From Buxus sempervirens (Eukaryota; Streptophyta; Magnoliopsida; Buxales; Buxaceae): 64,000 nucleotides of DNA. Position 1 is the stretch's first letter. Every line of letters starts with the position of its first letter. Shown piece after piece: positions 7,001 through 62,100 of this stretch. Where the stretch lies: the NCBI GenBank assembly GCA_947561395.2, contig OX387195.1, forward strand, positions 27,233,126-27,297,125, written 5' to 3'. Below the pieces are notes generated by a model, which did not search any database, was not told the DNA's origin, and saw only the letters and a list, made by a program, of their open reading frames with translations. The position numbers and the translations under genes are program-made.

Positions 7001-7115
7001 CAAACTCCTTGAACATGGCGAGAAGCTGAGCTTCACTCATGTGCTTGGGGACCTGACCAACGAAGAGCTTGACGCCCTCCTCGCTGGAATTTTGTGTTTG
7101 GTGTCCTTCCGCCAT
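134..7115 (-). CDS. BRN1: BRN1/BRN2-like (Bruno/CELF-type) RNA-binding protein, three RRMs, nine exons
   Basis: Predicted exons, 5' to 3' on the minus strand: 7115-6947, 6749-6667, 3252-3201, 3040-2915, 2741-2662, 1400-1218, 936-588, 487-344, 261-134. They join in frame to 437 residues, close to the plant Bruno-like proteins. RRM1 covers about residues 16-96 (RNP2 LFVGQV; RNP1 region RGCCFLICP is split by intron 1). RRM2 covers about 104-183 (KLFVGM, KGCAFLKY). A Pro/Ser/Asn-rich linker follows, then RRM3 at about 352-430 ([16 protein letters not shown]). Family members bind 3'UTRs; Arabidopsis BRN1/2 repress SOC1 mRNA and a paralogue is defence related. The ATG at 7115 is preferred; an in-frame TTG lies just upstream. 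The C-terminus after RRM3 is short and basic ([10 protein letters not shown]). The 3'UTR runs toward the window start. Intron 2 is 3.4 kb. BRN1 versus BRN2 cannot be decided here. Confidence 0.93.
997..1026. repeat. (AG)n microsatellite in a BRN1-like intron
   Basis: About 15 uninterrupted AG units lie in intron 6 of the BRN1-like gene, roughly 60 bases upstream (in transcript sense) of the acceptor at 937. On the transcript this is a CU-rich tract. Confidence 0.95.
4076..4665 (-). mobile_element. LINE relic: RNase H-like 3' end inside BRN1-like intron 2
   Basis: On the minus strand, broken frames read KLNFDG near 4640 and, about 350 bases downstream, [17 protein letters not shown] near 4300. 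These are the first-strand and C-terminal signatures of the RNase H-type domain found at the end of plant LINE polyproteins. Several in-frame stops separate them, so this is a pseudogene. The lower boundary is a T-rich stretch near 4076 (an A-rich tail on the minus strand). No target duplication was identified. The element lies in the same orientation as the host gene. Confidence 0.7.
5752..5777. repeat. (CAACAC)n short tandem repeat
   Basis: About four imperfect CAACAC units in intron 2 of the BRN1-like gene. Confidence 0.8.
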
Positions 7116-7838
7116 CAATGCCGAATCTCTCTCGGCTTCAAGCTCTGCAACACGTCCTGATCGATCTTCGCTTCGTTCTTTTAACTTCTCGCAGTCGTCT
7201 CTCTCTCTCCTTCTCGCTCTCTCTCACTTGCGACTAATTTGACGGAAATGAAAGCTTTTGCCAGGGGCAAAGTTGGGTCTTTCCCTTAATATTATAATCC
7301 AAAATACACAAATGCCCCTTATATTCCCTTTAAATACTTAACCGACCTTCATTGTTTTGCTTTAAAGTCAAAACTGCTCGCAAGGCATCGACGGTCGAAC
7401 GCCGAAGAGCCACTGTTTTTTAAGAGTTCGTAGCGGTTAATGACATAAATACCCTCACAACATTTTGTTTATTAAAAACTCGGTTACTTATCATAAACAT
7501 AAAGAAAGCCTTTTTTTGAATTATTGATATTAAAATTTGTGAAAATGAAATTGATTTTGGCCTCCTATAATTTGGCCAATTGTAAATATTTTTGCACTGA
7601 ATTGATTGCATGTTTGAAGGTGCTGCAAACTTACACGGTAAAGCCTCAGGGTAGTTGTACTCGAGGCCAAGGATCAAATCCTTCCTTCAACCCAGAGTCT
7701 CCCTTACCTTAAGACCAAAATAAAAAGAAAAGACAAGAATTCATTGTATCATTTCAACCGTTTGATTAATTGTTGAAAGTCATAAAATAAAGAAATCAAA
7801 TCGTTTGTGCCGACTTGAAATCGACCAGAACCCCCTGT

Positions 7839-18584: not shown

Positions 18585-34207
<15,623 letters not shown>

Positions 34208-36801: not shown

Positions 36802-38634
36802 TCAGTAGTAAGATGAAGATGGACCTGAAAAGGAGTACCATGATGAGACTGGTGTGGATGCGAGATCAGGTCTGCTGGAGTGGTGGTGAGTGAGGTTGTG
36901 AACTGATATGGCAGTAGAAGGATCTGTTAGGTATAATCTTTCTGGTTCAGCAGCCTCAATCCATTGTGAAAGATTGGTAGTGCCTCCTCCTGTGTAACTG
37001 GAATAAGGTAGGTATGTCTCTCCACTGCCAAGAGGATAAGGTTTGGAAGAGGCTCCCTCTCTCCTGGGAAGCCAAGAATAAGAGTCTGAGGATGTGTTGC
37101 CATACTGGTAAAGATAACGTGGATCCTTCACGGAGGGATCTAAATTGGAAGCAGAAGTTGCTGAAGCAGGAGGGTTTGATGAAGGTAATTCCTGCCCCAC
37201 TCTGAGACCATAGGCTCGATACTCCTTTTCAGTAAGGAAAAGGGGATCAGGGCGAACAGCCGCATTCTGTCTAGTGGCCATACCTCTATCCGTTGGAGCA
37301 GGGATTCTCTCATAATCTTTTGTATATTGATCCGATGTAGCAGTAGGAACTGTAACAGAAGGGGTTGAGGTAAACCGTTCCCGACAAAGGCCATAAGTTC
37401 GATACTCCTTCTCACTCAAAAAAAGTGGATCTCGAGGAACTGTCTCTTTCTTTATAGAGGCCATATTAGGGGATCTAGAGGGCTGTTCCCGTTCATGATC
37501 ATACGGCACAAGAAACCTCCTGGCTTCACCGTATGAGTAGGTGCCTCTAGGTAATGGTTCGATGTATGCCCGAGGTTGAGCTTCTTTAGCATTCACAAGA
37601 ATTTCATCAGCTGGCATGCTTGTCACTGATGGGGCATGAGCAAATGGGCCTAGCTGAGGTTCCTGAACAAAAGAATGCACATTTGCATGCGCATCAGATG
37701 CAGGTCGGAACAGTTGTGTAAGCTTCTCTACCTGGAAGGGCAAGTTAAGATACTCTCAGAGCTAAGAAATGAGCACATATTGAACATCAAACTCTAGAGA
37801 TGGTGTTTCTCACTTGCTGGACAGTAAGCTCCATCTTGAATTTATGTGTCTTTTCATCGTAGTTGCCCTTTATTGCCATCTTAAATACAGTATCAGGTAG
37901 TGGATAGCAATCCTTGTCAACTTTGAACCGCACCTATAGGACCGAACAGTCTCAGTGCAAAGGGCCATGGCTCCAAGTCCAAGCCTCCAAATTTTATATA
38001 AAGAAAGCATAACTAGTTAAAGAAACACAGGAAAAAAAGGGAAAAAGAAAGGAACCTGAGCAGGGAAAGCTCCAGCAAATGCAGCTGGTTCAAGTTTCAT
38101 GCCACCAGCAGAAGATGCTTTATATATCCCATACATAAGCTTGAGATCAAAATCATAGAGGAACAGTTTCAAACCTGGTTTAATTCCCATCACAATATCT
38201 TTCTTGTTCAGAGGAACACCCATGACATGATAGCGGAAACAATCCGGTTTGGTCTTTGCATTGCAAATGAAGATCAACCCACCAAGTTTATCCTTGTTTT
38301 TCTGGTAAGTCTGATTCTTTTCTTTGTATTTGTCATAAGTATCATTCTTTTCTTTGTTTCCATCACGTGATTTCAGGTTCTCTCCATCTTTTCTTTGGTT
38401 GGTATTTGTTTCTTTATTTCCCTCCTGTATGCTCTTTTTCTTGCTCAGAGTTTTTTCTAAACTCTGTGAGTTACCTTGACCTTGTTTTATGTTTGCAATG
38501 TTCTGATTTGACGAGTTCTTTGCAATTTTAGGCTCGGGCTTCAAAGATTTTGGAGTTTCTGTACCAGATGATAATTGTCTTGAGTAGGTTTCAGCAGAAT
38601 TCCCAGCAGCCTTCTCTTTCTTTGCCTGTGCCAT
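36802..38634 (-). CDS. DCD (development and cell death) domain protein, three coding exons
   Basis: Coding exons: 38634-38056, 37933-37814, 37731-36802, giving 542 residues. The N-terminal 115 residues are a Lys/Asn/Gln-rich charged tail. The DCD domain spans about residues 118-245 ([12 protein letters not shown] at its start, [27 protein letters not shown] at its end). The C-terminal half is Pro/Ser/Tyr-rich and disordered. It carries two copies of a 15-residue motif, [15 protein letters not shown] and [15 protein letters not shown], and possible weaker relatives. Plant DCD proteins such as the N-rich proteins act in stress-induced cell death. This one is a DCD protein of a different subgroup, and its exact role is not known to me. 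A non-coding 5' exon probably ends at the donor near 39887 (TCAAG followed by GTATCG), with a 1.2-kb leader intron. Confidence 0.9.
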
Positions 38635-40060
38635 AGTCCAACTTAACAGCCAAGCTTCTCCAGATAAAAGAAATCCTGGATGCAACAAGGAAATTAACCT
38701 TGAATGACCACTTGATATATTCCACCTCTTAAAAAATACTTTTACATGAAAAACAGCATAAAAAAATGTAACAGTAAGGACCAAACAATCTGGAATAGGG
38801 AAAATCAGCCTCTTCATGGCTCCATGACATACTCAAATAGACATTCAACTAATATGCCACGTCTTTTTTCTTCTCTTCTATCAGAATCAAGTTTTTTTCA
38901 GTAGATACTATATTAAAAAGCCAGTCATAACACGTACAGCAGAGACTCAAGTGTGCGCGTATGTGTGTGTGCATGCATTCACAAACCGGAGGTCAAGTAC
39001 TGAAACTATACGCAAGATGTACATATCATCCTCTTTTAACTTATTGTACAAGGGTGATGAGTATTCCTATGCTCTGAACACGATTGAGCACCATTCACAA
39101 ATCTGGAACAACCATCTACTGTACCCATCCAAAGAATTTTGCCATCTACATTCTTCTCTGATCACAAAGGCAGATTTATTTTTGCTCAGTTGAGATTTCA
39201 AATACATTAACTTGGAATCCTGTACCCACCCAACCTACTCAACCAATACTTTCTAGTTTCTACTATCACAGAATGAAACTGATCGTCCCTCTTTGTTGCT
39301 CTAAATTCCTGTTTCTGTTCGCTTCATTCGCCATTTACTGAACTCCATAATTGCAAATTCGGCGACAGCAGCTTAACTGAGAAATTATGATCTGTTTTTC
39401 TCAGTTGATATTTCAAATAACCCTTTGTCACTCCTATTTCTTATTTCTGCTGGCTTCATGCACGAATCACTGTTTCTACGTATTTACAGAATAAATAGAA
39501 TTTATATCCCATAATTAATCTAATAATCACGACACTGAACATACAGTGAGCTTTACCAACAGAGTATGTCAAAAAGCCTCATCTCGAGTCCATATTAATA
39601 GCAACAATAACCAAATAAACAACACAAAAATGCAACAATGAATACCCTTTTCAACCAAATTAAATTACAGATACATTCACTGATATCGTAACTTGAACAA
39701 GAGATTTCTAGCAGCAACCCAGTACAATAATAACATTAAAAGAACATTAAACACTAATCCCGCCAACACAAATTACGCAAGGAAAGCTCAACACGAGTAA
39801 AATTAAACCTTCACGCGAATCCAAAACAGAACTTAAAACCGAAAGAACAAACACCGAAAATTAGGGTTTCTGCTCTAAACGATACCTTGACAAAAGCTCA
39901 GTCCCCGATCCGGATAATCAATCTAAAGCAAAAATAGCCAAAATTGCGGATGAAGTGCTGGCAAAAACCGAATGACTAGCTAGCGATGACTGTGCTTTCG
40001 GAAATCAGAAGCTCCGAACTGTGAATTCGCGAAACCCATATTTCAAAAGATTTATCCCCT
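38635..40060 (-). other. Probable 5'UTR exon and leader intron of the DCD gene
   Basis: A donor-like TTTGTCAAG|GTATCG lies near 39887 on the minus strand, in sequence less AT-rich than its surroundings. A pyrimidine-rich acceptor-like region is near 38680. No coding ORF continues across it. Confidence 0.45.
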
Positions 40061-41452: not shown

Positions 41453-43168
41453 TCAATCTAGATAAACTTTAACATCTATTCCATTATCAATAAGAGACTG
41501 AACTACTGCTCTAATCTTCCCTTCAAACTTGTCTCTCTCCCTTGGCGTATATGATGCAGTGTACACGTCAGCTTCCCTTGCCCTGTCAGCTAAGATCTGG
41601 CCAATAGACAGGCATGCAGGTATGTCTGACCGGGACTTGAGGACAGCCTTAATATCTTTGGAGTTCGTCCCAGCAACTGCCACCTGCTTACTGGTCACCC
41701 TGTGGGTAAGTGATGCTGAAACAAAACGCTTGGAGATGAAGACATCAAGTGTGAATGGTTCCATGTAAGCTTCTGTGCGGCTTTTGAATGATATATGTTT
41801 TTGTGGGTTCTTTGATTTCTTCTCCTTCTTGTAAGTGTAGGGGCGGCTGTTGTCGTCGTCTAAGAAATCCTCCACCCCGAAGAAGCTTCTTGGAGCAAAA
41901 TGAACCTATAACAAATTCCACAATTAGGGTAGATCCAAAGGATCAAATCTGAATCACGGTGTTATGAATCCCACACCTCCCTGTTCCTTCCCCCACCCAC
42001 CCAAAAAGGGGAAAAAAACACTGGAAACCAACCAAAAGAATATCCAATTACGTAAATGCTTGAACATCCAAACTTGTTGAATTTGTTGTAGAGGGCAGAG
42101 GTGTTCAATTTTTTGTGAAGAGCTGAAATGGCAACTGACAATGTAAGTCTTGTCTTTCTCAAATATTGCAACACCCTAAGCAAATGAAAGCCTAACCTGG
42201 TATCACCACCCAACCATCAATGTTGTAAACAACGCTCAAATTGATAGACTATTTTAGTTTAGTAGTACAAAACTGTATTCTCTCCCCTCATTTTGCTAAA
42301 TTGGACAGACTTACATAATTTCGATGTAGAACACTAGAACTTGATATAATTCCAATAGTTCCCAAGAAATCTGTTAATCTTGTTGATTAATAATGCCATG
42401 GGTCGTAGACAGCAAAGATCGTAACCAGTCCATTCAGAGAACAGGTATGGTTCCATCAAAGAACGTTTTTATCCACCAGAAAGGAGAAAAATTAGACTGC
42501 ATCCTTTCCCATAGGCTTCTATTTTTCCACTACATTCTTAGAGACTTCACTTCCTGCACAACTGCAGTTATTAGGTAATCCCATTTTTACACTGCATGTA
42601 AGATCCATTCAAATTCAACCTTTTTTTTTTGGTAGTGATTCAAATTCAACCTACTAGTATTCTAGGATGCCTCTAATCTGATACACTTGAGAATATTTTA
42701 ACGTATGGCAGTATTCTGGGAAAATGGATTTTGTATATTTTCTCGAGCTTTTAGTTGAAAACTCAGTCCCTAGAATATCCCTCTCAACTTTATAACCCAA
42801 AATTTTTTTTTATCTTAATCTGTCACAAACTGTAGGGATATTTGAATCATAGAGAAACCGAAGAAAAATAAAAATTATTTATCAATGATATCAACATATC
42901 TTCAAAAGTTTTGGTTATGAATGAGCGTGAATTAAAGTGGTAAATTAGTAATAGGTATCGGTTGACCTTGTATGAGTAACAACAATTTTATGAAAAGTAG
43001 GAATGGATACAAACAATTAGTAAAGATTCAGAGCACACTGATAGCATTGCAGAGTACCTTTCCATTGTGGAAACCACTTGCGGACATAAACAAAGAAAGC
43101 CTCCTCCCATCTGCTGTGTGTGCAAAAACCTCGCCACTCCACACCTTGCTCACAATATGCTTCAACAT
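41453..43168 (-). CDS. Ribosomal L18p/L5e family protein, two coding exons
   Basis: Coding exons 43168-43058 (37 codons, starting MLKHIVSKVW) and 41905-41453 join exactly at codon borders to give 187 residues. The C-terminal half has the uL18 fold features: RFVSASLTHRVTSKQVA, then a helix and strand up to RAREADVYTASYTPRERDKFEGKIRAVVQSLIDNGIDVKVYLD. That makes it a plant L18p/L5e-like protein rather than a standard cytosolic L5. It probably works in an organellar ribosome, but I see no clear transit peptide, so localisation is open. A non-coding 5' exon likely ends at the donor near 43803 (GAAAAGGTATTTT), with its acceptor near 43190. Confidence 0.85.
42621..42637 (-). mobile_element. Minute retroposon-like insertion: T10 + GGTAGTG with 14-bp target duplication
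   Basis: ATTCAAATTCAACC occurs at 42607-42620 and 42638-42651, on either side of ten T and GGTAGTG. The insert is nearly identical to that at 35905-35925. It lies in the intron of the L18-like gene. Confidence 0.75.
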
Positions 43169-45519: not shown

Positions 45520-47902
45520 CTAGGTGGTCTTTCTTGGCTCTGAGCTGTGATTTCTCCAAGGATTGAGAGCCTCTTTAATTGTCTGAGCTTCAGGGGAACT
45601 CTCCCAAGCTTGCTTCTCGGACTCCAAAACAGTTACTTTGTCATCTGCTTGGCACTCTAAACATCAGGTGTGCAGTCAAATATATCAATCTTTAGAGTCT
45701 CATGTTGAGACCAATAAAGCCAAGTTCCAACCAAGAGGTTTTATATTATTTGAAAAGAAAAAATGTGGGCAGAAAATGCAACAGCAAAAACATGCTCTTG
45801 TACTATAGTAGCCACAAGTCCCTGTAATTCAACCAAAGGTTACTAATGTTACAACCAGTAATGATACATGTTATGTGAATGTTGCAGCAATGTGAAATCA
45901 GCATCCAAATGGAGAAAATTTAGGTAACAGCTTTGAAAAGTAACATTTAGGAAATAAACAAAAATGTGGGGAGGTAATTCCCTCCTATCATTTAAATAAT
46001 GACTAATTTCACTAGTGAAAGAAAATTTTCTTGCGGGCATGCATGACATAATCCCTCTCCATTTCTTGTGGGCATGCATATAATCCCTCTCCGGTAGTGT
46101 CCAATTGGGAAAATGTAATAGAATACCAAGAATAAATTACCGTTACTTTGATCTCTGAGGTTGGGTTGGGGGTATATCATGACATTTCTGGTCCCCCTAC
46201 TAAACCTAATAAGAGCTAACATGGATTCACTGTCAACATATCGCACTTATCTTCCAGAAATCTCTGTTTTAATAATTTTGTTATGATGTAACCATATTCT
46301 GTTAATTAAAGTCAGATAGTGTAATGAACGAAAATATAAAATAGTATTTAGGTGTTGCCCAAATAGGAGATAAGACAAAGGAAAGTAGACGAATCCAACA
46401 GCATTAGAGGAAGACTGAAAAGAACATGGATCGAGTCAGTAATAAAGGATTTGGATATTCATACAATCTAAGATAAAAATTTTTGATAGGTCGGGATGGA
46501 TGAGGAGGATTCATTTTGCCAATATCAATTAGCTGGGATAACTAACAAGGATTTCATAGTTCTTAATTTTTCAACTACTCATCAATTGAATTATCAACAA
46601 ACCCCATCACTCTAAGAAAGCAATCTCCACATCAATAAATTTTACATAGAAAATAACATTATAGCTTCAGCACTAATCTACCACATCATTTCTTTTGTAG
46701 ACAATATTATCACGTTGTGAAATTGTGAGTGTATAAAACAGAAACTAAATTTCTAACTTTGCAGTTCCCGCTTCCCAAATTAGATTCAAGCAATATTTGT
46801 GGGATCCATGTAGAAGCATGAAGATATTTTTTTTGGTAAATGAGTTGTTATTATTTGTTCTCTGGAACCTAGTAATACAAAATTTGCAGGAAAAAAAAAA
46901 GAACGGAAAAAGATAAGTACTTTATGGAGGCATTTGCAAACAGTCAGCAAAAACACCTTTTTTTTTATCAGTAATAAGGCAAATATATTCAGTAATAAGG
47001 TATATATATATACCCCAAGACCGCAAAAACACCTTATCTGGAGGAATGCTTCAAAGTTTCAATTTTCTTTCCCTGATTTTGTACTACAAGAGATGATTTT
47101 CACTAAAAACCTCTATTTTGGCAAATTTCACTCCAGAAAGACAAGGGCAAAAAAATGAATATTTCATATAAACTTTTCTAGTCCCAGTCAATTCTTGCTT
47201 CAGCTAAAGCTTCCCTAACCACTCTTTTTAACATGACTGATAGGTAGATCCAAGAACTGAATAAAATGAACAATTACTGAATACTGCCTTTTTAGGCAGC
47301 CACATCTTTGTAGCATGAGACTATGAAACTCCATGCCTGACGAAAAAGAACATGAAAAATGAAAGCTTTATCAGCAAATCCATACATTATTCAAAATGTT
47401 AAATAGCAGCCACTCAAATTAAATTGACCTTCACTTTTTCAAGAAGATTGACCAACAAGCAGCATTTCCAGTCTTCCTTCGTTTTATTTTAATTAGAGAG
47501 TGAAAGGAAATAATTTCCCTCCTCTATCATAAAGGAGATTTTGGTAAAAGAAAACTCATCAAATGGCTTCAATGTTCTATTCCACATAATCACTGGGGTT
47601 TCCATATTGAAAAAATGAAGATTGAGGGTGATTTGTTTGAAGGGCGCATCCATGAAAAGACCAACCATATAAAGAAAATCATGACAATACCAATTAAGCA
47701 CAGTGAATGGCATGCAGAAGAGCAATACAAAGCGGCTCTGAAGATAAAACACAAAAAGAAGTAATGAAGCAAAAAGACTGAGGGAAAGGGAAAAAAGGAT
47801 GGTTCTCACACAGAAACCAGTTTTGATCATGAACAATTCCATTGAAGCTCCAACCATGGCTGATACCACTGCTATCTTCAAGTACCAATCCAGAAACTTC
47901 AT
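45520..47902 (-). CDS. Small (71-residue) membrane protein, two exons
   Basis: Exon 1 is 47902-47812 and exon 2 is 45644-45520, separated by a 2.2-kb intron. The join is in frame: the codon T|AT restores ...MIKTGFYDKVTVLESEKQAWE. The protein has one hydrophobic helix (about residues 6-24, YLKIAVVSAMVGASMELFM) and a soluble acidic-to-basic tail (ESSPEAQTIKEALNPWRNH). It resembles a family of short, uncharacterised plant membrane proteins conserved around the MIKTGFYDKVT...WESSPEAQ block. I do not know its function; the size and single helix are compatible with a subunit of an organellar membrane complex, which is only a guess. An in-frame ATG lies 11 codons upstream (47935), but the MKFLDWYLK start fits the family better. 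Confidence 0.8.
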
Positions 47903-49756
47903 ATCCACTGATGAATTCAGAATTTCAGAGTACATAATAAATGCAGAAATAAGGAAGAAAAAAAAATACTTGCATAGAACTCAATGCACACACATACTGT
48001 TGGTGTGGTTGGAATGATATGGCATACACAAGAGGATACATGAGAACCAAATTACTAAATCCCAATGATTCTCATCAGAAGGTCTGACCAGAACATCAGG
48101 TAGCGGATCTTACTCATCCCACTTGATGGTTTTATATTTTTATTCTATTCAACATTTTACACTTACTTCAATATGCATTATCCATAAAATGCTCCATCAC
48201 TTCCATGCAATTCCTTCTTTTGGATCTCTTGCATCTTATTCACCCATTCAATTGTATCAAGAGTCCTCTCCGTATAAATTGATTAGCAATAAAAATTATG
48301 TCAATACAATATCATATACATACTTAACACCACCACCACCACTGACAATGACAACTACAAAACATGGCTGTTCAGAACACTTGTCTGAATGATCCACATT
48401 CTGTAAACAATTAAACATATTGATAGATAAGTAGCAGAAAAACTATCTCTATCATTGAAGACTATAATCCCAGGACCATTCAATGTTTTTTTTTCCATAC
48501 ACTTGTTGGAAATGATACATCATGGATATGGATGTGAGATGTATCTAATACTTCAAATTTCTAACTATACATATACATATATATATATATAGTTTGACAC
48601 CCAACAAGCTCTACGGACACACAAAGAATATTTAGAAGCCTGTCAATATGCTTAAAATCAGTTATATCTTGTATAACTGCGATACATTACTACATTTAGA
48701 CTTTTTATGACTACCTTTAGAGTTTATAGTTGCTTTGTTCATAATTCAACATTTTATTCACAGGATAAACTGTGAATACACACAGACATACACACATATA
48801 AATATCTTTTTTTTTCCTTTTAATCTAGATAATTTATCATCATTTCTCTGATGAATGAAGCAGTAATGAACATTCATCGCCCATTATAAGATACATGGAT
48901 GCACCCAACACCTATACATCGGTCCATTCACATAGCCCTGCAAGGAAGGGAACACCTTTAAGATACATGGTTGGAAAATGAAGATGCTGCAAGTTGTGTA
49001 ACTTGAACTCACTAGCATAGCCCATTTTTCATGCTTTAGAAGCAACGAGTTATGGTTTTGGTATTTAAAGACAAATTCTCCTTTATATGAGTGGTTGAAA
49101 GAAAAGGGATATCTCTTACATGCTGCCCAGGGAAGAAGACTTTGGATCTTCCAAGTCAAAGAGACTCCAATCACATCCTGATGTTACATGCTACTTATAT
49201 TAGTTCCAATAAAAAGAATAAAAGATGTGTTTTCCTTTCTTTCATTCTTCCATTAAACTCAAAATATGAAAACTGATTCTTTGCACCATAACTACATTAC
49301 ATTTAATTAGTTATTATCCTTGTCGAATCGTTCCAGAGTGAAAGATCTATCTATCCCACTTCCACACACAATGGTGTCTGTAGCAAATCAGAGAACCACA
49401 TGGAATTCCAGCCAAATATTTCCCAAAAAAGGCAATTAGATCTTCACAAATGCTCAACCTCAAAAGTTTGAAGCATAATCAAACCCATAAAAATCCCAAT
49501 AGAACTCTGCACAAGAATATCATCGTAGCCTATTCACGATCTCATGGAGATCCAAAATTTAAACATATGAGCTAATATATATAGTTTAACCCAGAACTAA
49601 TGAAACCAACAGGCAATGAAATGCTAAAAGCCACGCAAAAGACTCTAGAGATTGCCTTCCCATCATAAACCCTCGATACATCATGGAAAATTAGACAGAA
49701 ACCTCCTGAATTCACTACAAATTGAAGAAAAAACAAAATGAAGAAATGATAAAAGA
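47903..49756. other. Upstream region of the small membrane-protein gene
   Basis: No further exons recognised. It contains a short (TA)n tract at 48569-48591. Non-coding 5' exons of the small gene may lie here. Confidence 0.4.
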
Positions 49757-50324
49757 TAAGGCCTCATTTGGCTTCCATTCCAGATTAGGAACTCATTCCG
49801 AGAATGAGTTCTTAAAACTCATTTTGCGAATTAATTTTGAAGTCTTTCTAATTGCGTTTGTTTAGCACGTAGTAGAATGAATTTCACCCAGAAAATTGTT
49901 TGGTTAACAAGTAATAAAATGAGTTCCATGAAATTTTTTCCCCCTTTTTTTTTTCCTTTTTCCATGAATAATTATAAGAAACTGGTTGATCCTTAAAAGA
50001 TAAAACTTGAAACACCTAAGAAATGAAAAAGAAAAAAAAAACTTAAAACCATCTTATAAATATATTTGGATACAAATAATTCAAATATATAACAACTAAA
50101 AACGATGTTTTCAATTGCAAAAACTGAATCATGCTTGCAATAAATATTAGTTGAAAGATGATAGATAAAAATAAAATACAAATATGTAATAAATAAAAAA
50201 CAGGTTTGCTAATTATGTCTATTAATTTAAAACACATAATGATAGCAACTATAAGTAAAGTCACAAAGTCCTATCACATCCATGATTTATAGCAAAGTTC
50301 ATTACATTAATACGAATAATACGC

Positions 50325-50455
50325 TCAAGGGTATTCACTATTGCAAGCATGCAATATAGCTTCAGCAATTGATTGTCTAAATGCATCCATCCTCCTTATT
50401 CCTTGTTCTTGTACTACTCCATCTGGATCCGGTTCATCATCAATGTGCACTTCTT
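50325..50455 (-). pseudogene. C-terminal fragment of a Harbinger-type transposase
   Basis: The open stretch reads an acidic segment (EEVHIDDEPDPDG) followed by RMDAFRQSIAEAILHAC and a stop. An acidic linker followed by a final amphipathic R..IA helix is usual at the end of plant Harbinger nucleases. The same ending is repeated at 54375-54422. Catalytic regions are absent. Confidence 0.5.
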
Positions 50456-51741
50456 CAATAATACAAAAGAACTTGCAATAATTAAATAAATAAAAAAACA
50501 GAACAAAAATTCCATCAGTGTTATTCAAGCTGTGTATCATTTTCTATTTTTTTTCTTGTAAACATAATTCTGTGGTTTTCTATGTATTTGAATAACATTG
50601 AATGTAAGAATCCTCCATGTAAACAGAACTACAAAGTTACTGAGACATGAATTTTGATCTTTGCATTGCTCTATTCACTTTTTCTTTAAATAATCAGAGA
50701 AGTTCATTTCTATATTACCTTAAGTCCCTATACCAGGAGCAATGATGCAAATACAAGCAAAGAGTAACATAAGCAGGTTAAAACATATACAAACATAAGC
50801 AAGTTAATAAACGATGAGACCAAGATCTGTTACATTCTAAAATAGTCTTAGCTGGAAGGATTCTTGATAGATGATACTTTTTTCCAACTCTAATTAACAG
50901 TCCACTACCAAACAAGTTATGTCATAATTGGTTCTAAGATTCGACCATGAACACACCCCTTGAACATTTGAGCCTGCATCTAAAAACCCATCCCCTTTAA
51001 GGTTTCAATTTGTAGTAAGCCCAATACAACTGTAAGTGACCCAATCCACGATGGAAGTCTTCTGACAACAGAAGACCCTTGAATGTACAAGCTACTGATA
51101 TATGGAGTACAAAAAACAGACATTATATGCTTCTCACTCCTACCAGCCAGCTTATTAAACTCACGGGAAAAACAATAGGCTAAAACTATCAGCTGTGAGG
51201 AACACAAGATTGAACAAAAATCACCTTCAGAATGACCTGAAAGATGACCATACAGAGTAAAGGAGCAGGACTGCGGGTTGTACCCAAAAGTTCCAAAATG
51301 ATCCTTGAACCTTCCTTCAATTTCAAGGATAATCAATATACTTTTGAGTTACCTGTTGAATACTTTTACAAACAGATCATAGGTTGTAAACAAATTTGAC
51401 AAAACACCAAGTAAACAAGCTCAGAGGCATCTTGCACGGTTCTATTCTGAAGTGGACATAACGAAGCCTCCCGTCACCTAAATTAGAATCGGCCAGATTT
51501 TGCTACAGGATTGCTTAGAAGAGTCACATGTGATCTGTTTTGTACATGGGAAGTGGGGAGAAGAAGAGCATCATGGAGTTGGTACAGGGTGATCCAAGGA
51601 TCATGCCAACTGCTAATAACTCTTCTCATAAACGATAATTTGAAAATGGAGGACCAAGAATATGCCCATAGAAAAAAAAAGGGAAATCAAAAGAAACAAA
51701 GAAACACCCAGCGACCCAACCTAGTTATCACTATCAAGGTA

Positions 51742-51777
51742 GTTCATATCCCAACTAATCACTGTTGGGATATGAAC
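51742..51777. repeat. Perfect 14-bp hairpin flanked by a 24-bp direct repeat
   Basis: GTTCATATCCCAAC and its exact complement are separated by 8 bases. AAAGAAACACCCAGCGACCC occurs at 51699 and again at 51779, just outside the hairpin. It lies within the outer Harbinger-like element. Confidence 0.9.
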
Positions 51778-52797
51778 AAAGAAACACCCAGCGACCCAAC
51801 CCTCTTTTTGATGGTGGAAACTGTAGCGACCGAAATGGCCAAGGGAAAAGATATAGCAATAGTGGCAGATTTTACCATAAAACTAACAGCAATAGCATCA
51901 ACATTCCAATAATCCCTAATAGCCACATGAAAATGCAAGCAATGTAAAACTGGAAAAAAGCACTAGAAAATGAAGTAGACGAAAGGAAAAGAAGAAAAGA
52001 TTTCTCGATCACCTCTGGCCACGATAAGAACGATCGTCAAATCCCTTTGATTTCAGCGCGTAGCAACGGAGCAATGGAGGCTTGCTTCTGCGTTTGAAAC
52101 TTGAGAACGAAAGATTGAAGAGGAAGGGATTTGCTGGTTCGTGGAGGAGAAAGGCTGGATTCCTCTGTTTACATTTTATGCCCCTCTTAATTCATTTTAC
52201 AATTTTGCAACCGGAAAAACGCTCAAAACTCATTCCTAAAATTTGGAAGCGGGTCGGGCCGATCTTAAAAAACACTAGTTTTTCTCATCAAATGAGGCCT
52301 CGTTTGGCTTTCATTTTAGGAATTCATTCCAAGTCTTGGAACTCATTCCAAACCTTGGAATGAATTCTGATACCAAAATGAGTGTTTGGTAAGGCATGCA
52401 AGAACTCATTCTATAAGAATGAAAATGAGAAAACCCCTGATTTTCAGAAACGGCTTCAACCCCGTTTTTGGATTTGAGAATGGGTTTTAAGTTTTATGCG
52501 GTGGCAAACTTGTAATTATTGATAACTTTAAGCAATGGCATAAAATGTAAATATGACTATTGAGCCTTCTCACCTTCAATAAAAGGCTTTCCAATCGTTG
52601 AAGAAGAGGAAACTATTTTTCTTCTTCTTCGTTGCTGCTACTCTGGTTATTGAAGGGGAACTGGTGCATAAAGCTTGGCACGCTGCCCAAGGGGCCTTCT
52701 AGCGTTATATATAGTATAGGTATAGTGATATGGATGAACTCCTCAACAATCATATATACGTACCATATATGTGGGTTGATTATGTTTTGTGTTTCAG

Positions 52798-53219
52798 GAG
52801 GTCATACTGTTGGGGTTGCACATTGTTCTCTTTTCCAAGATCGTCTCTACAACTTCGGAAGCTCCGGCAAACAAGATCCCACCATGGATCCCGGGCTAGC
52901 CGCTGCTTTAAGGTTGAGGTGTCCTCAGAACTCGACGAGAGATAACACGGTGGGTCTTGATCAGAACACTTTCAGTCAGAACATTGTTGATAAATCCTAC
53001 TATCAGCAGTTGCGGCTAAACAAAGGCATTCTTCAAATTGACCAAGAGCTAGCCTTAGACGCACAAACAGAAGCAACTGTGAAATCGCTGGCCGAAGGAT
53101 TTGATTTCAAGACCCAATTTGGTAAAGCCATGGTCAAGTTGGGAGCTGTTGGTGTTCGCACGGGGACTGACGGACAGATTAGGAAGTCTTGCAGGGTCGT
53201 TAATGGCGGGTCGAGTTGA
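52798..53219 (+). pseudogene. Class III peroxidase, last exon only
   Basis: A splice acceptor (TTTCAG at 52792-52797) opens a frame of 139 residues. It starts GGHTVGVAHCSLFQDRL, the proximal haem histidine motif, and ends SCRVVN(GGSS) with a TGA at 53217. The position matches the last exon of classical four-exon plant peroxidases, and sequence such as GILQIDQELALD is like the PER44/PER57 type. The exon is undamaged, yet the distal histidine domain and signal peptide encoded by earlier exons are missing. Upstream DNA is transposon 5' end, so no functional secreted peroxidase can be made. It may be transcribed as a chimaera. Confidence 0.9.
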
Positions 53220-53468
53220 TTAACGAAGAAGAGTGATTTTGTTTTGGTTGTTTGGTTTGAGGAAATTGTTTTTGATTGTAGTTAATAAATGAGTGAATAT
53301 GTGATGGGCATGGAAACCGTGCCTTTTCAGCAAAGGAAATAAGAGGGATGATTCTCAGAATTTGTGGGAAGCACCTAGCATGTTTTTTATTCTAAATACA
53401 TAAATTCTGTTTTCGGATTTTGGAATGGCAAAATCTTAGAAAGAAAAAAGTTGAAAAGTGACTAAAAC

Positions 53469-53500
53469 AAGCATGCGCTCTACCATCTGGGCAACATCCC
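53469..53500 (-). pseudogene. 5' half of a tRNA (tRNA-Ala-like)
   Basis: The minus strand reads GGGATGTTGCCCAGATGGTAGAGCGC..., the acceptor and D-arm of a plant tRNA-Ala with one or two changes and an A-box. The anticodon arm and B-box are absent. It is too short for a functional tRNA. Confidence 0.7.
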
Positions 53501-54374
53501 AGCATGGCTTTAATGTTCCTATAATTATTTATAAATCTATGATCTTAGAGAACTTCCAGTTGCTTTAGGTCACAACTAGACTCAATTTGATCCAGGTTAA
53601 CATCAAGACAAAACCAAACAGAACCAAGTTGAGATCCATCTCTCCAACCCAAAAACCAAACTACAATTAAATGAAAAAACCCTAAGATAAACAAGTCCAA
53701 ACTAACCTGAATCATAAATTCAATTTGGTTTGAGTTGGCTTAGGTTAATTTGACACATAAAATGAGCTTCTAATCTTTATATTCTATAAGGTTAAGCATA
53801 ACAACAAACACAATCTCGGTAAACTAGTTATAAGAAAATAAACAGACACACATATTTCCTTATACATATATAGATTAAATTCGGTCTGGTTTAGTATAAT
53901 ATATTCATATGTTGGATTTTGGTTCAGTTCAATTTATCCCAAGATTGCCCTGAAAGAGTCACAAGTTGGCAGGGTCTGGCATTTCGTTTTAATTAAGTTT
54001 TAAGCAAGCCAAAGCTCTAGGCCTGGCCGGATATAGTTAAAATTTTGTCTGATAAGGCCGGCTCATTGAACTCCTGTCAAGCTACAAAATTAATTGCTAG
54101 AAAACTCATGCCTCCTGCAAGAGTACACTTGCATAAATTTGTTACCAAAAAAGAGAAGAATTGCCTTTCCTGCTTGCAGTCCTCGCTGCAAGCTGCAAAA
54201 CATCTCTATTCAACTACAGCCAGTAGGTCGCTGTCTCTACAAAAGCAGTGCCTCGCATCTGCCCCCAAATCCACCTACATAAAAGCAGACAACCTTTGTC
54301 AAAAAGGAATAAGAACATTAATTCATAAATAATTTATCCACAAAGAGAGAAAAAAATGATAGCATTAGCTCATA

Positions 54375-54422
54375 TCAATTGCTGAAGCTATAGCGCATGC
54401 TTGCAATAGTGAATGCCCTTGA
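54375..54422 (+). pseudogene. Second copy of the transposase C-terminus
   Basis: Reads SIAEAIAHACNSECP and stop; it differs from the minus-strand copy at 50325-50455 at two residues in this span. Confidence 0.55.
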
Positions 54423-55023
54423 GAGTATTATTTGTATTAATGTAACAAACTTTGTTATAAATTATGGATGTGATAGGACTTTGTGACTTTACTGATAGTT
54501 GCTATCATTATGTGTTTTAAATTAATAGACATAATCAGCAAACCCATACTTTATTTTGTTTTTGTTTTTCATTTCTTAGGTGTTTCAAGTTTTATCTTTC
54601 AAGGATCAACCAATTTCTTATAATTATTCATGGAAAAAGAAAAAAAAAGGGAAAAACAAATTTCATGGAACTCATTTTATTACTTGTTAACCAAACAGTT
54701 TTCTAAGTGAAAATTCATTCTGCTACGTGCTAACCAAACGCAATTAGAAAGACTTCAAAATTGATTCGCAAAATGAGTTTTAAGAACTCATTCTCGGAAT
54801 GAGTTCCTAATCCAGAATGAAAGCCAAACGAGGCCTGAGTTTTGGCACACCTTACCAAAACATTTGTGTATCTTTCAAAATTCATTCTGGGCCTTGAAAC
54901 TCATTCCAAGCCGGAATGAGTTTTCAAAATAAAAGACAAACAGAGCCTAACACATGTTGTTAGACAAGATATGCGTTCGGTGGCAGCCTGAGATTTTTTA
55001 TTTTGACCCTACATTTTGTTTTT

Positions 55024-55675
55024 CGTATAAAATGGGAGGGACCAACCAATGTATCTTGCCCAGGCCTGTCGAAAATGCAAGGCCGGACCGACTGGCCCGC
55101 CCGACCCACTACCAACTCGAATTTTCCCACAAGAAAATTGATTTTCAGTAATATTATTTTTAAAAGTAATTTAGATTTAGTCATCCAATTCTCTGAAATT
55201 GAAGATCAATAATTTTTGCTTAAAATAATTGAAAATGAAAGTCATTTTAACAAGTTTCTTTAAAAAATGCCTGACTCCTTAACGTCATTAAAATCGTCTA
55301 CAGAAAATTTTGATCTATTAAGTCATTTCGAAGAAAGCTTTATATATTCGAAAGCTTTATATATAGTAAAATCAATGATACTAATTCTTAATTATTTTAA
55401 AAGTATCACTTATTTCTGATTTTTTTAGAATTAGGTGACTGAATTTAAATTATATTTAAAAATCAGTTAAAAACCAAGTTTCCTCTTTCCACCCATTCTT
55501 CACGCAAGGGAGACAAGGACTCGAGTCAAAACGCGTCAACCTTTCCACGACATTCTATTTCAAATATTGCATCAGAACCCATTATGGCTTTGGTGGGAAG
55601 TGCGCATCCCACTCCTTTCTCTACAGACTACAGCAGCGATACATCAAATGGTCAACAACAGCATCAGTTTGAAGT
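55024..55675. repeat. Local duplication, copy 1 (filled with a MITE)
   Basis: 55039-55130 and 55486-55675 match 58433-58735. Shared words include GACCAACCAATGTATCTTG, CCCATTCTTCAC, AAGGGAGACAAGGACTC, AAAACGCGTC and ATGGCTTTGGTGG. Copy 1 is split by the MITE at 55131-55485 and has a small deletion after its ATG. A possible short frame (ATGGCTTTGGTGG at 55584) ends after about 30 codons. Confidence 0.85.
55131..55485. mobile_element. Long-TIR MITE inserted in duplication copy 1
   Basis: The arms AAAATTGATTTTCAGTAAT...TCATCCAATTCT and, inverted, ...AAACTTGGTTTTTAACTGAT...TCACCTAATTCT are of the same family as 17576-17876. The empty site at 58517-58538 shows exactly what was inserted. TTTCCCAC (55123-55130) and TTTCCAC (55486-55492) are the likely target duplication. 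Confidence 0.85.
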
Positions 55676-56268
55676 TTGAACCATAACTTATCAGACACGT
55701 TGCGTATGTAAGAAGTTCGGATGCACTAATTTACACGTTAGCCACACTATTTTTGTTGATAAGATGTACTAAAAATATTAGGTTTACAAAAAAAAATTTC
55801 CGACCTACAATTGATTTTGAATGCACCAATTTACCAAAAAATTTGGTGTGTCGTTTATAAACAGATAACAGTTTATCAGTTTTGATTTATGTATACCTCT
55901 TCAGAAAAAACAACAGAATAAGGAAAATTAGGGTTTTGTTTCTACGAAGATGCTTTGTTGTTGTCGTGTAAACAGAAGATGTGTATTGGTCATTCAAAGT
56001 GAAAAAAACCATTACTAATTAGTTTGCCCTAATTTTGTGTTCATCTATTTTTATGCTATTTTCTCATCAAATCGACTTCTTCTCTTAATTAATTGAAGGA
56101 TAAAGTCTGACGCTTAGGATTTCCCCAGCATCTTCCACCTCCATGTTTTCTCTCTTTTTTTAATCTCAGAGATTCTTTAGTTAAGGGTGTAAAAGGGTAC
56201 AGATAATTTCAACTTGAACATGCTACGCGGTAGGTACGATCTCGGGCTGCTTCTCGACCATGGAACCT

Positions 56269-56490
56269 TCACGAAAATCGTATCAATGGAGGTTGTTCGA
56301 AAGGAAAAACATGATCAGAACAGGAATGAAGCATTAAGTGAAGTGCGAGATGATGAAGATAATGAAGCATCCATGAGGTCCTGGTGATGAAAATCTCGTT
56401 GAGCTCCATGAGGTTCTGGCGAGTAAGCCTAACATCCACTTTGCCGCGGAGCTTGTTTCGGGCGGCAAGCTTTTTCTCTGGGGTCTCCAA
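56269..56490 (-). pseudogene. Coding-like relic of unknown origin
   Basis: The minus strand is open and GC-richer than its surroundings, reading EKKLAARNKLRGKVDVRLTR and NLMELNEIF, until it runs into a MITE end at 56491. I do not recognise the family. It may be the remains of a gene or a captured exon. Confidence 0.3.
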
Positions 56491-57306
56491 GGCCCCGTTT
56501 GGATAGCAAGAGAGTCGTTTGGATAGCAAAGAGAATGAATGAAGGTGAAAGAAAATAGGGTTTTCTCGCATCACGGTAGCATTTGGATAATTGAAAACTG
56601 TGGGGCCCATTGTTTCTCGAGAGAAAAAAGGGTAATAACCGCCCAAATTTGTTTCAAGTACCTAGAGGTTGGATTTTGTGTCGTGAGAAAAGCAAACACA
56701 CATCTTTCCAATGATACCCTTCCTAAATAACTGTATCTTCTTTGAGGAGTATTTTTCATGATTTCAAAAACTCTATCGAGAGATTTGAAAACTTCTCATG
56801 GTTTCAAAAACTCTATCAAGAGAGAAGTGTTGTGGTGGGATTAAGTATAGGGGAAATTAGTGTTTAGTGTTAATTTTTAAAAGTAATCCTGTTTCAATCA
56901 TTACATGCTTAGTAATTGAAAATTAGTGATACTCTTTAAAAATAATTGCGAATAAGAATTATTTTACTGTTCACATAAGAAAAAAGAAAAAAAGATCTTT
57001 AAGAGGTTGGGTATCATCAATTGCATGATTAAATAATCGATACTTACACCGACTAATGTAAAGAAAAAAACAAAGTCAAAACCATGAATACATGTGAGGG
57101 TAGGATTGGAATCACATTTAACATTCCAATAACATTCTTACTATCTAAACACAAAATTCTAGATTTTCAGTTAAAACTATAAAATTTTTTTATAACATCC
57201 AAACAGTGTTGAGAAAATTACTTTTCAATTTTTTTTACTTCACTTTTCTTTCACTTTCTTTTCTCAAATGTCTTTCTCGTATTCTCTTGGTATCCAAACA
57301 GAGCCC
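56491..57306. mobile_element. DNA transposon/MITE with GTTTGGATA termini
   Basis: The left end GGCCCCGTTTGGATAGCAAG and the complement of the right end GGGCTCTGTTTGGATACCAA are alike. GTGAAAGAAAA follows about 40-60 bases inward on both sides. A piece of the long-TIR MITE family (56850-56960) is nested inside. No clear target duplication was seen. Confidence 0.7.
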
Positions 57307-58413
57307 AAAGGCCAGTTGAGAGAAGATGGCGTTCCTTCGTACTATCAACAACTTGTATCTTAAAAGCTGAAAATGAAGTCGACTGTTAACGTTGAAATCA
57401 ACTTAAGATAACGTTGAAATTGGTTTGTGATGAAATAGGACGCGTGGCGGCGTAAGAGGGATCCCAAGAGGCTTACGTCAGAAAGGAATTCAAAAATTTA
57501 CATGATATTTTGATATCTAGACCGTTTCAAAGCGAACCCAAAAGATTATAGTCTAAAATTTTGATTTGTCAAAAAAATGTAACCTTCGAAAGTTTTCAAG
57601 GACCGCAGCCCCATATCCCCTATATAACCACCCCATGACTTTATAACTATTTTGTGTAGGGGTTTAAGTATGTACTTGCAATATTGTATGGTATGGGCCT
57701 ATGCCCCAGTACTTTTATAGAAGAGTAATGTTTTGAAGCATTCAATTATTAAACGCGTAATATAACGTGTGTTTTTAATTAAATTAAAAATTCATGTTGC
57801 TGGTTGGGCACTTACATTAATATAATAATATTCACTAAAACATGGAGCTATTTTATCACTTTAGTAGATAATGCCATTACTTTTATATATATATACACAC
57901 ACACCCAGTTACACTTATATGTATTTAACAAATATATATATATATATTAATTAAACTGGCACAACATAATATCAAGGTGTAACATGAGCACCACCTATGC
58001 ACAACACAAGAACGCTAGGCACGACATAACTTATACCTAGGCCATAGGCTGGCCGTGTCAGGCAAACCTCTTGGAAGGCTACCATGGCATGATTGAGCAA
58101 ACAAGTCAGCATGTTATGTACAACACATGGACATCTTCTATAGCAAGGAGTGTATATACCCCTTCACATGAATGTATAAGGTCCCCAAATGAATGGTGGG
58201 GCCCTTAAATGAATGTGAGAGGTGTATACACTCCATTGTAGGAGATGCGAATCGTGGTACAACACTCTTAACATGGCTGGCATGACTCAATTGGCTTGTG
58301 GGCATCACGGCACGGACACCCCTGGATTTATGAATGTTAACTTACGTATTTGAAAGTTTAAGACATGTCAAACATACATGATATCATTAAACAGTATATG
58401 CCTAGGCTTGGTC
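57307..58413. other. Intergenic region with dinucleotide repeats
   Basis: Contains (TA)n/(CA)n at about 57886-57905 and (AT)n at 57932-57948. No exons recognised. Confidence 0.5.
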
Positions 58414-59154: not shown

Positions 59155-62100
59155 ATGCAAGCGCGAGGAGCCACAAATGGAGACGCCGATAGTTGTATGC
59201 AGGTTATTTCTAACGATCATCCTCTAATTTTGGTGCATTATATGCTGTGTTTTTAAGTTGATCTTTCAGTTTCCGTTTATAGAGCTTTTGTATTTCTTCT
59301 TTTTGTCCTTTGGGCGTTGTGGTGTGTAGTTTATTTTATGGAGAGCTGATGCAGATGAATGCTATTTCCTGATGGATTTTGCAAAATAGGCAGATTGTTT
59401 TGGTTTATTTTAATGGAAGATTAGTCGAGAAAGTTGAATTAATCGGGGAATAATAATGTTCTTTAATTCCGGTTTAACCGTTTTTATATTCAATTGGAGT
59501 TATTCCTTTGGTTATTAAGTTGAATCTGATGACCGTCTTGAAAGATAGTGAAATGAACTTTTGAATTGATATTCCCATGGAAGAAAATTAGTTTTAAAAA
59601 AAAAGCAGCAAAATATATTCAGAATTTCGGAGGAACGGTATCTTGATAGTTTATCCTGTCTTACTGACTGGCATGCCCTTTGGAGGGAGGGGCTGTGTGG
59701 GTTGGGTTTTGGGTCCAATCATGTGTTTTCCCTGGTGTTGTCATTGTAGTCTATGTGAAAGCTTTAAAAGAAAATGAGGATTTTTTAATACTGATTTTCG
59801 ATGATTATTTCTTATGAGCATGTGATTTCATTAAAACCTTAATGATGTGACAATTAACTTCTCATATTATCATCTATAGGACTCTGATCTTCAGCAAAAA
59901 ATTTGCTTCCATGGACTCCCACTAATGTTAAGTTTATGGATAATATAGACTCTTACTAAAAGTTGGAGTGACAATTGACTGAACTTGGTGTTTATATAGC
60001 TCTGGATCAGGTTCATCTAGGAGTTCCAATGATTCCTTGGGTCAACAGATACTGATTCCGATGCAAAATGTTTCTCCATGAACATATTTTGCCGTAAAAG
60101 CTCAAAATATAGATTCATCCTATCTAAAGCTAATTCTAAAGACTTTTTTTATCGGCAGTTTTACCATGAAATCAAGGAACCCATGAATGAGGAAATCACA
60201 CCTTCAGGATCTAGTGGGATGCGTGCTGATGTCTCTCTTCAAATACCTCCTAGACCTTTGGGCCTTGTTGATGGGAACAGTGTTAGAGGTCTGCTCCAGT
60301 CCCGAAATTCCTTGAAAGGTGGTTCATTCCCCAAAAATATATTGCGTGGGATAAGCTTTAAGAACAAGATGGTTGTAACTGCGGATGAGAGAAGGCTCTT
60401 ACTCAGTCCAGATCATACAGTGGTTCCTGAGAGTCCTGTCTTGGCCAATTTCATGTCTTCATTCTTCTCCAAAAGATGTAATTCTCTTCCTGTTACACGC
60501 ACATCAAACTTATCATCTCCAGCTTCCACTTCTACTAGAGTGAAAATGTACCATGAAGAGAAAAAGTCATATGTAAGCTCTCCCCATTGTTTAACTGTCT
60601 TCCTCATTTTAAACTGATGATTGCAAACTTAATCAGCATAATTTCCTTTTACTTTTGGTTGTAACTTTTTCTTTGCTTAATTTCCTGCTTCCTATAGAGT
60701 AAGTTCTGTGAATTCATGCAGAAAGGTCCATTTCAATGGAAGGTTTCAAGGTCCCTTTCTGTACCAGAACGCCATAATATTTTTATTGTTAGATCTGTTT
60801 CCTCAGCTGGATATATAGAACATGTACCGGCAGATCCTAATGAAGGTATGTGCATGTAATTTACTTTTTATTCATCATGATTTCCCTTAGTTTTAGATTT
60901 CAGGAACTGGCACAACTTGACTGAGCCGGTTCATTCTACTTTCTTTTGTTTTTCCCTTCTATCTTTTATGCTTCATACATATATATAAACCTTGAAGGAA
61001 TATTTTCATGTCAGCAAGTCATTGGGCCTCTGTTTTACAAAATAGTTTTAATAAGGAAGTCTAGTTCTGGTTTCATTTTGAGTTAGATTAAATTCAAATA
61101 AAAAGGAAAAATTTTATATGATAAGGTCATATGTGAACCGTGTATGCCCTGCTTAATTCAAATTTGTTAGTTATTTCAGTTATGTTCTGCAACTCCATCT
61201 CTTGCTAACTCTGGTCAGGTTACTCCTTTTCATATGGAAGACAAAGGCGAAGAGATCCCTGAAGAGGAAGCAGTTTGCCGGATCTGTATTGATACATGTG
61301 AAGGAGAAAATGCTCTCAAGATGGAATGCAGTTGCAAAGGTGCTCTGGGACTTGTACATGAACAGTGTGCGGTTAAGTGGTTTAGTATCAAAGGAAACAA
61401 GAAGTGTGATGTCTGTGGGCAAGAAGTTAATAACTTACATGTAACTTTGCATCGGGGGCAGAGTTCTGCTCAAAGGGATGACAGGCGCAACAGACGAAGC
61501 TCAAGGTTGATAAACAGTCCTCAAAGTTCATGATCTTGTATCTCATTTCTTACATGGGCATCTATGTTTAAAGATTTACCAAAGTTGCCTTGATTTCAAG
61601 GTGACTTTTATTGGTGGCTTGTATGACATGGACCTTGGATGAAGCTTACATGACTGGATGGAATCAGTAAGGTCAAACTTATTATCTGAGTCAATTGGCC
61701 ACACTCCATCTCAGGCAGTTCAGTCTGAGTCAAGTTTTATGCCATCTGAGTAAGCCCAAGTCCAGTGTCTTCAGTTTCTCATAAATTGACCTAGTCATAT
61801 CTGCTTCAACTTGGTTTTGATGCTTATTATCTGAGTCAATTGGCCACACTCCATCTCAGGCAGTTCAGTCTGAGTCAAGTTTTATGCCATCTGAGTAAGC
61901 CCAAGTCCAGTGTCTTCAGTTTCTCATAAATTGACCTAGTCATATCTGCTTCAACTTGGTTTTGATGCTTAGAATCATATATATGAACCTAGTCTCTAAA
62001 TGTGGCAACTTAAAATAGTCCAAACCCGGCACTACAGATATGCATGTTCAATATCCAAGAATAAATTATATGTAATATGGTATCTTATTCTTTCTGTTTA

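Follow-up and report, generated by a model that had tools for sequence, protein, structure and literature searches.

A probable Pack-type, PIF/Harbinger-like element of Buxus sempervirens carrying the last exon of a class III peroxidase gene

An undamaged exon lying between the ends of a transposon raises the question of where it came from, by which route it entered the element and whether it still serves any purpose in its new surroundings. Such an exon occurs in the stretch of 64,000 nucleotides of Buxus sempervirens that was analysed here as a whole (C22:27233126-27297125, hereafter the window), and it has been compared with the entire genome assembly, which comprises 676,531,615 bases in 247 contigs. 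A first-pass annotation had proposed that it represents a gene fragment captured by a Harbinger-like element and had suggested searching for a parental peroxidase gene with four exons.

The exon, its parent gene and the copied segment

The exon located at 52798-53219 on the forward strand is the undamaged last exon (exon 4) of a class III peroxidase gene. The acceptor site (cag, 52795-52797) is intact, and the reading frame remains open from 52800, where it starts with GHTVG..., presumably the proximal-His motif providing the haem ligand, up to a TGA stop at 53217-53219, so that the acceptor, haem-ligand motif and stop are all present, as had been claimed. The translated exon matches the peroxidase profile PF00141 with E = 1.5e-21 and covers only positions 147-236 of the 237 of the profile, which means that a complete haem peroxidase domain is absent. 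Among the sequences of solved structures, 25 distinct proteins are matched at E up to 0.001, with the royal palm peroxidase (PDB 3hdl, 6.2e-31) at the top.

A DNA search of the whole genome with window positions 52780-53260 yielded two matches, the window itself and C9:37457233-37457713 (99% identity); such counts are minimum values where repeats or large families are concerned, and diverged paralogs would escape a search of this kind. The second match belongs to an intact peroxidase gene on contig C9, with GT-AG introns and 326 uninterrupted codons followed by a stop, which is distributed over four exons:

C9:37454849-37455067, parent exon 1
C9:37455225-37455404, parent exon 2
C9:37456241-37456400, parent exon 3
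C9:37457251-37457672, parent exon 4

Since this parent has remained intact, the event consists of a copy and not of a cut. A blastn comparison of parent exons 1-3 with the window, at E up to 1e-10, gave no match. The window and C9 align in a single blastn match at 52657-54386, with 1656 identical columns out of 1748 and 41 gap columns, and reading of the individual bases at the 3' join places the end of the captured DNA at 54378. The captured segment thus trimmed corresponds to C9:37457106-37458822, about 1.7 kb, and contains the terminal 141 bp of intron 3, the complete exon 4 and a 3' flank of about 1.16 kb. Because intron DNA and a long downstream part occur together in one match, the segment was copied from DNA, not from mRNA.

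52657..54378, + strand, captured segment (blastn match to C9, trimmed at the 3' join)
52798..53219, + strand, exon 4 of the class III peroxidase (PF00141, PDB 3hdl, 4/422 differences from the parent)
54374..54378, + strand, ATCAA microhomology where the captured DNA meets the 3' end of the element (random-join comparison)

The five bases ATCAA at the 3' join are common to the parent and to the element. A microhomology of at least 5 bp was found in 0.9% of 200,000 random joins (a chance of about 0.009), the 3' end of the outer element described below serving in this comparison as a stand-in for the inner element before capture.

At 53483-53515, the window contains about 20 bp more than the parent, in a stretch which, judged by eye, we take to resemble the 5' half of a tRNA-Ala gene or the head of a tRNA-derived SINE. 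ARAGORN found no tRNA over the whole window, and Rfam, at gathering thresholds, returned nothing across 46000-58000.

Two nested PIF/Harbinger-like elements

The captured segment is enclosed in an element of 2540 bp on the forward strand (52296-54835), bordered by perfect terminal inverted repeats of 20 bp and flanked by TGA on both sides. This inner element lies within a relative on the opposite strand, the outer element (49760-54947), which has TAA on either side. The features, ordered along the window, are the following:

49757..49759, no strand, TAA target-site duplication left of the outer element
49760..54947, - strand, outer PIF/Harbinger-like element, interrupted by the inner element (inverted arms, TAA/TAA, 5' collinearity)
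52293..52295, no strand, TGA target-site duplication left of the inner element
52296..54835, + strand, inner element carrying the captured peroxidase fragment (20-bp terminal inverted repeats, TGA/TGA, nesting)
52296..52656, + strand, 5' end of the inner element, 361 bp (two collinear pieces matching the outer 5' end)
54379..54835, + strand, 3' end of the inner element, 457 bp (93% and 92% identity to the outer left arm)
54836..54838, no strand, TGA target-site duplication right of the inner element
54948..54950, no strand, TAA target-site duplication right of the outer element

Once the inner element is removed together with one TGA, the 5' region of the outer element becomes continuous, and its pieces align in order with the 5' end of the inner element at inner positions 3-110 and 176-256. 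The local scores are 52 and 56, against maxima of 30 and 26 when each was tested with 200 base shuffles; the inner stretch that separates the two aligned pieces is poorly conserved. As read from the sequence, this continuity of the outer element is internal empty-site evidence for both the borders and the nesting. On the other side of the captured DNA, the 3' end of the inner element is 93% identical to 49760-50041 and 92% identical to 50191-50368 of the outer arm, of which the part 50042-50190 is absent from the inner 3' end. The first bases of the inner 3' end are the closing codons of an open frame that also occurs in the outer element, presumably the C terminus of a transposase. The window contains 119 pairs of exact inverted 20-mers spaced 0.5-6 kb apart; among the matches listed (40), all the pairs connect the outer left arm with the inner 3' end, so that this count cannot serve as a clean control for the inner repeats. 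Outside the window, the element ends were not found in 227.5 kb, consisting of 200 kb of C22 and the 27.5 kb around the parent on C9 (blastn, E up to 1e-4); their lack of a match around the parent fits copying in trans.

With respect to classification, the terminal repeat motif G(N)5GTT has been reported for PIF/Harbinger elements of Medicago (PMC2213677). Inwards, the outer element reads GGCCTCATTTGG from the left and GGCTCTGTTTG from the right, and both ends of the inner element read GGCCTCGTTTGG; the motif occurs at both inner ends and at the right outer end, and the left outer end deviates from it by one base. The target-site duplications measure 3 bp and match each other in both elements, TAA/TAA in the outer one and TGA/TGA in the inner one, the latter being unlike the TTA or TAA usual in PIF/Harbinger elements. 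The inner element has no intact transposase of its own, and its ends of 361 and 457 bp are too short for one. Three stop-to-stop frames of at least 80 aa lie wholly within 52296-54835:

within 52296-54835, peroxidase frame of 205 aa
53033-53281, - strand, frame of 82 aa in captured DNA
54021-54332, + strand, frame of 103 aa in captured DNA

The inner element thus consists of a host-gene fragment between terminal inverted repeats, with the parent identified elsewhere, as in the elements of the Pack-TYPE group. Further copies that would point to mobility after capture were not found, the exon region matching only the window and the parent genome-wide; such copies are not required of Pack elements, since single-copy ones have been described (PMC8277862). 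Taken as a whole, the inner element is very probably a non-autonomous Pack-type, PIF/Harbinger-like transposon, in which DNA of about 1.7 kb, copied from the peroxidase gene of contig C9, has taken the place of the interior. The proposal of the first-pass annotation is upheld by the existence of the parent, by the borders at 52296 and 54835, which enclose the exon between identical and inverted 20-base ends instead of excluding it, and by exons 1-3 having no match in the window. Its picture of one exon in one transposon has to be enlarged: the capture stands, the copied stretch (52657-54378) is far longer than the exon, and two nested elements are present in place of one.

Some additional features of the window deserve mention. 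An exact direct repeat of 27 bp occurs within the outer element, at 51695-51721 and 51775-51801. Other frames include a Development and cell death (DCD) domain frame at 38017-38832 (- strand, Pfam 1.1e-30), a RING-variant domain frame at 61171-61530 (+ strand, Pfam 3.1e-14), a Ribosomal L18p-like frame at 41453-41905 (- strand, Pfam 9.7e-9) and an RRM domain frame at 6819-7223 (- strand, Pfam 7.6e-7). The frame at 31254-31970 (- strand), devoid of a Pfam match at E up to 0.001, looks to us like a fragment of a hAT transposase.

Divergence and possible function of the captured exon

The first-pass annotation attributed the undamaged frame either to recent capture or to selection, and proposed to compare the divergence of the exon with that of the intron. 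The exon differs from its parent at 4 of 422 positions, namely 52954, 53051, 53071 and 53210, two of the changes being synonymous and two non-synonymous, and the resulting dN of 0.0063 and dS of 0.021 rest on these 4 changes. Before any cleaning of the alignment, the noncoding DNA differs at 56 of 1277 positions (2/141 in the intron and 54/1136 in the flank), and the exon is lower (p = 0.0004). After removal of the gap columns, of the badly aligned 53483-53516 and of everything past 54357, the noncoding count amounts to 40/1242, with 6/404 next to the exon and 34/838 in the more distant part (p = 0.016), and the exon is still lower than all clean noncoding DNA (p = 0.013), a result which the constraint on the parent alone would give. 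Compared to the adjacent noncoding DNA, the exon shows no significant difference (Fisher p = 0.54). As the exon is not significantly less diverged than its noncoding neighbourhood, a recent capture suffices to explain why the frame is undamaged; of the two possibilities put forward, recent capture is thus retained, at a divergence of about 1-4%, and selection is not. At rates of 5e-9 to 1e-8 per site per year, the noncoding divergence corresponds to about 0.75 to 4.2 million years.

Along 52657-54357, the divergence is uneven, with 13 differences in 984 positions to the left of about 53676 and 31 in 680 to the right, and a change point of this strength is reached by 1 out of 500 permutations. 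This unevenness is not predicted by a single capture followed by uniform decay, and it counts against the reading preferred here. Any of three causes could account for it: constraint on the transcribed part of the parent, mutation rates that vary by region, or gene conversion.

The captured exon is most likely functionless: it lacks exons 1-3, which encode the distal haem-side half of the peroxidase, and nothing points to selection acting on the copy itself. It is very doubtful that the exon functions by being spliced to a leader from the 5' end of the element, or by being translated from the stop-free frame 52602-53219. In its favour, this frame is open through the retained piece of intron from 52602, with a first ATG at 52734, and the intact acceptor could be served by a candidate donor at 52389. 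This donor is the best predicted (7.8), the best within 52600-52700 being that at 52646 (5.8), and the parent's own donors reach 9.3, 7.5 and 4.8 with the same hand-entered splice-donor matrix. Against function stand the absence of the distal half, a divergence that is not significantly below that of the adjacent noncoding DNA, and the small number of changes behind dN and dS. Also very improbable is a combined scenario in which a transcript from the 5' end of the element would be read as a half-peroxidase, the N terminus of which would consist of former intron DNA, while gene conversion by the parent would keep 52657 to about 53676 similar; the protein start from the ATG at 52734 looks hydrophobic by eye. 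If true, this would represent a new half-peroxidase with former intron DNA as its N terminus.

Route of capture and relation to known systems

The most likely route, held with moderate confidence, is a break repaired in place. A PIF-like element already residing inside an older relative would have been broken in its interior, repair would have copied peroxidase DNA in trans, and the 3' end of the element would have been rejoined via the 5-bp microhomology, i.e., by template-switching gap filling. In PMC8277862, single-copy Pack-TIRs of animals are mostly attributed to gap filling of this type, in place and guided by microhomology.

The main rival differs in the route only, and supposes that the capture occurred elsewhere and that the finished Pack element was then transposed as a unit into the outer element. 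The matching 3-bp flanks of the inner element within an outer element that reads through would be expected from it just as well, and no second captured copy was found, which is a weak point against it since cut-and-paste transposition would leave none; it is accordingly regarded as possible, on the less probable side. It is unlikely that two neighbouring insertions, one on either side of the fragment, fused and were mobilised as one element, the model known from Pack-CACTA and put forward also for maize Pack-PIF clusters (PMC8903248), because no element end is matched in the 27.5 kb around the parent and the 3' join runs with microhomology into the interior of the element instead of into an internal terminal repeat. 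The extension of the captured piece about 1.16 kb beyond the stop is what a segmental duplication of the 3' part of the gene would give, the transposon ends adjoining it by coincidence; this reading is quite unlikely, since relatives of the outer element's two ends adjoin the captured DNA on both sides and the terminal repeats match perfectly over 20 bp, with matching 3-bp flanks.

The locus can be compared with previously described systems. Rice Pack-MULEs carry gene fragments between terminal repeats, often with a source on another chromosome, and MULEs in general are characterized by 9-bp target-site duplications and long repeats. The inner element resembles them by its captured gene fragment between terminal repeats and differs from them by its 3-bp target-site duplications and PIF-type ends. 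Rice Pack-MULEs are mentioned in PMC8277862, and PMC13317346 gives a review of gene capture by transposons in plants. Like the animal Pack-TIRs produced by gap filling, the inner element is single-copy, shows microhomology at a join and has left its parent in place; in contrast, it comes from a plant and its source lies on another contig, whereas 59.8% of the animal cases are intrachromosomal (PMC8277862). Pack-PIF elements are known from maize and from rice (Gisby and Catoni 2022, PMC8903248). With these and with Pack-TYPE elements, as portrayed there, it shares the non-autonomous PIF/Harbinger-like nature, the short terminal inverted repeats and the host-gene DNA inside, but it is distinguished by the lack of any further captured copy found and by its nesting in a relative of its own kind. 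The captured DNA, about 1.7 kb with the whole last exon and 3' flank, also exceeds the 163 bp and 58 bp given for one maize Pack-PIF cluster in the same source. A literature search for a class III peroxidase exon captured by a transposon found none.

The locus is a further, ordinary case of the Pack-PIF type that is well resolved, the parent, the copied interval, both borders, the nesting and one likely repair microhomology all being readable at base level. It leaves existing knowledge unchanged, and fits break-repair copying in trans as a route for plant PIF-like elements.
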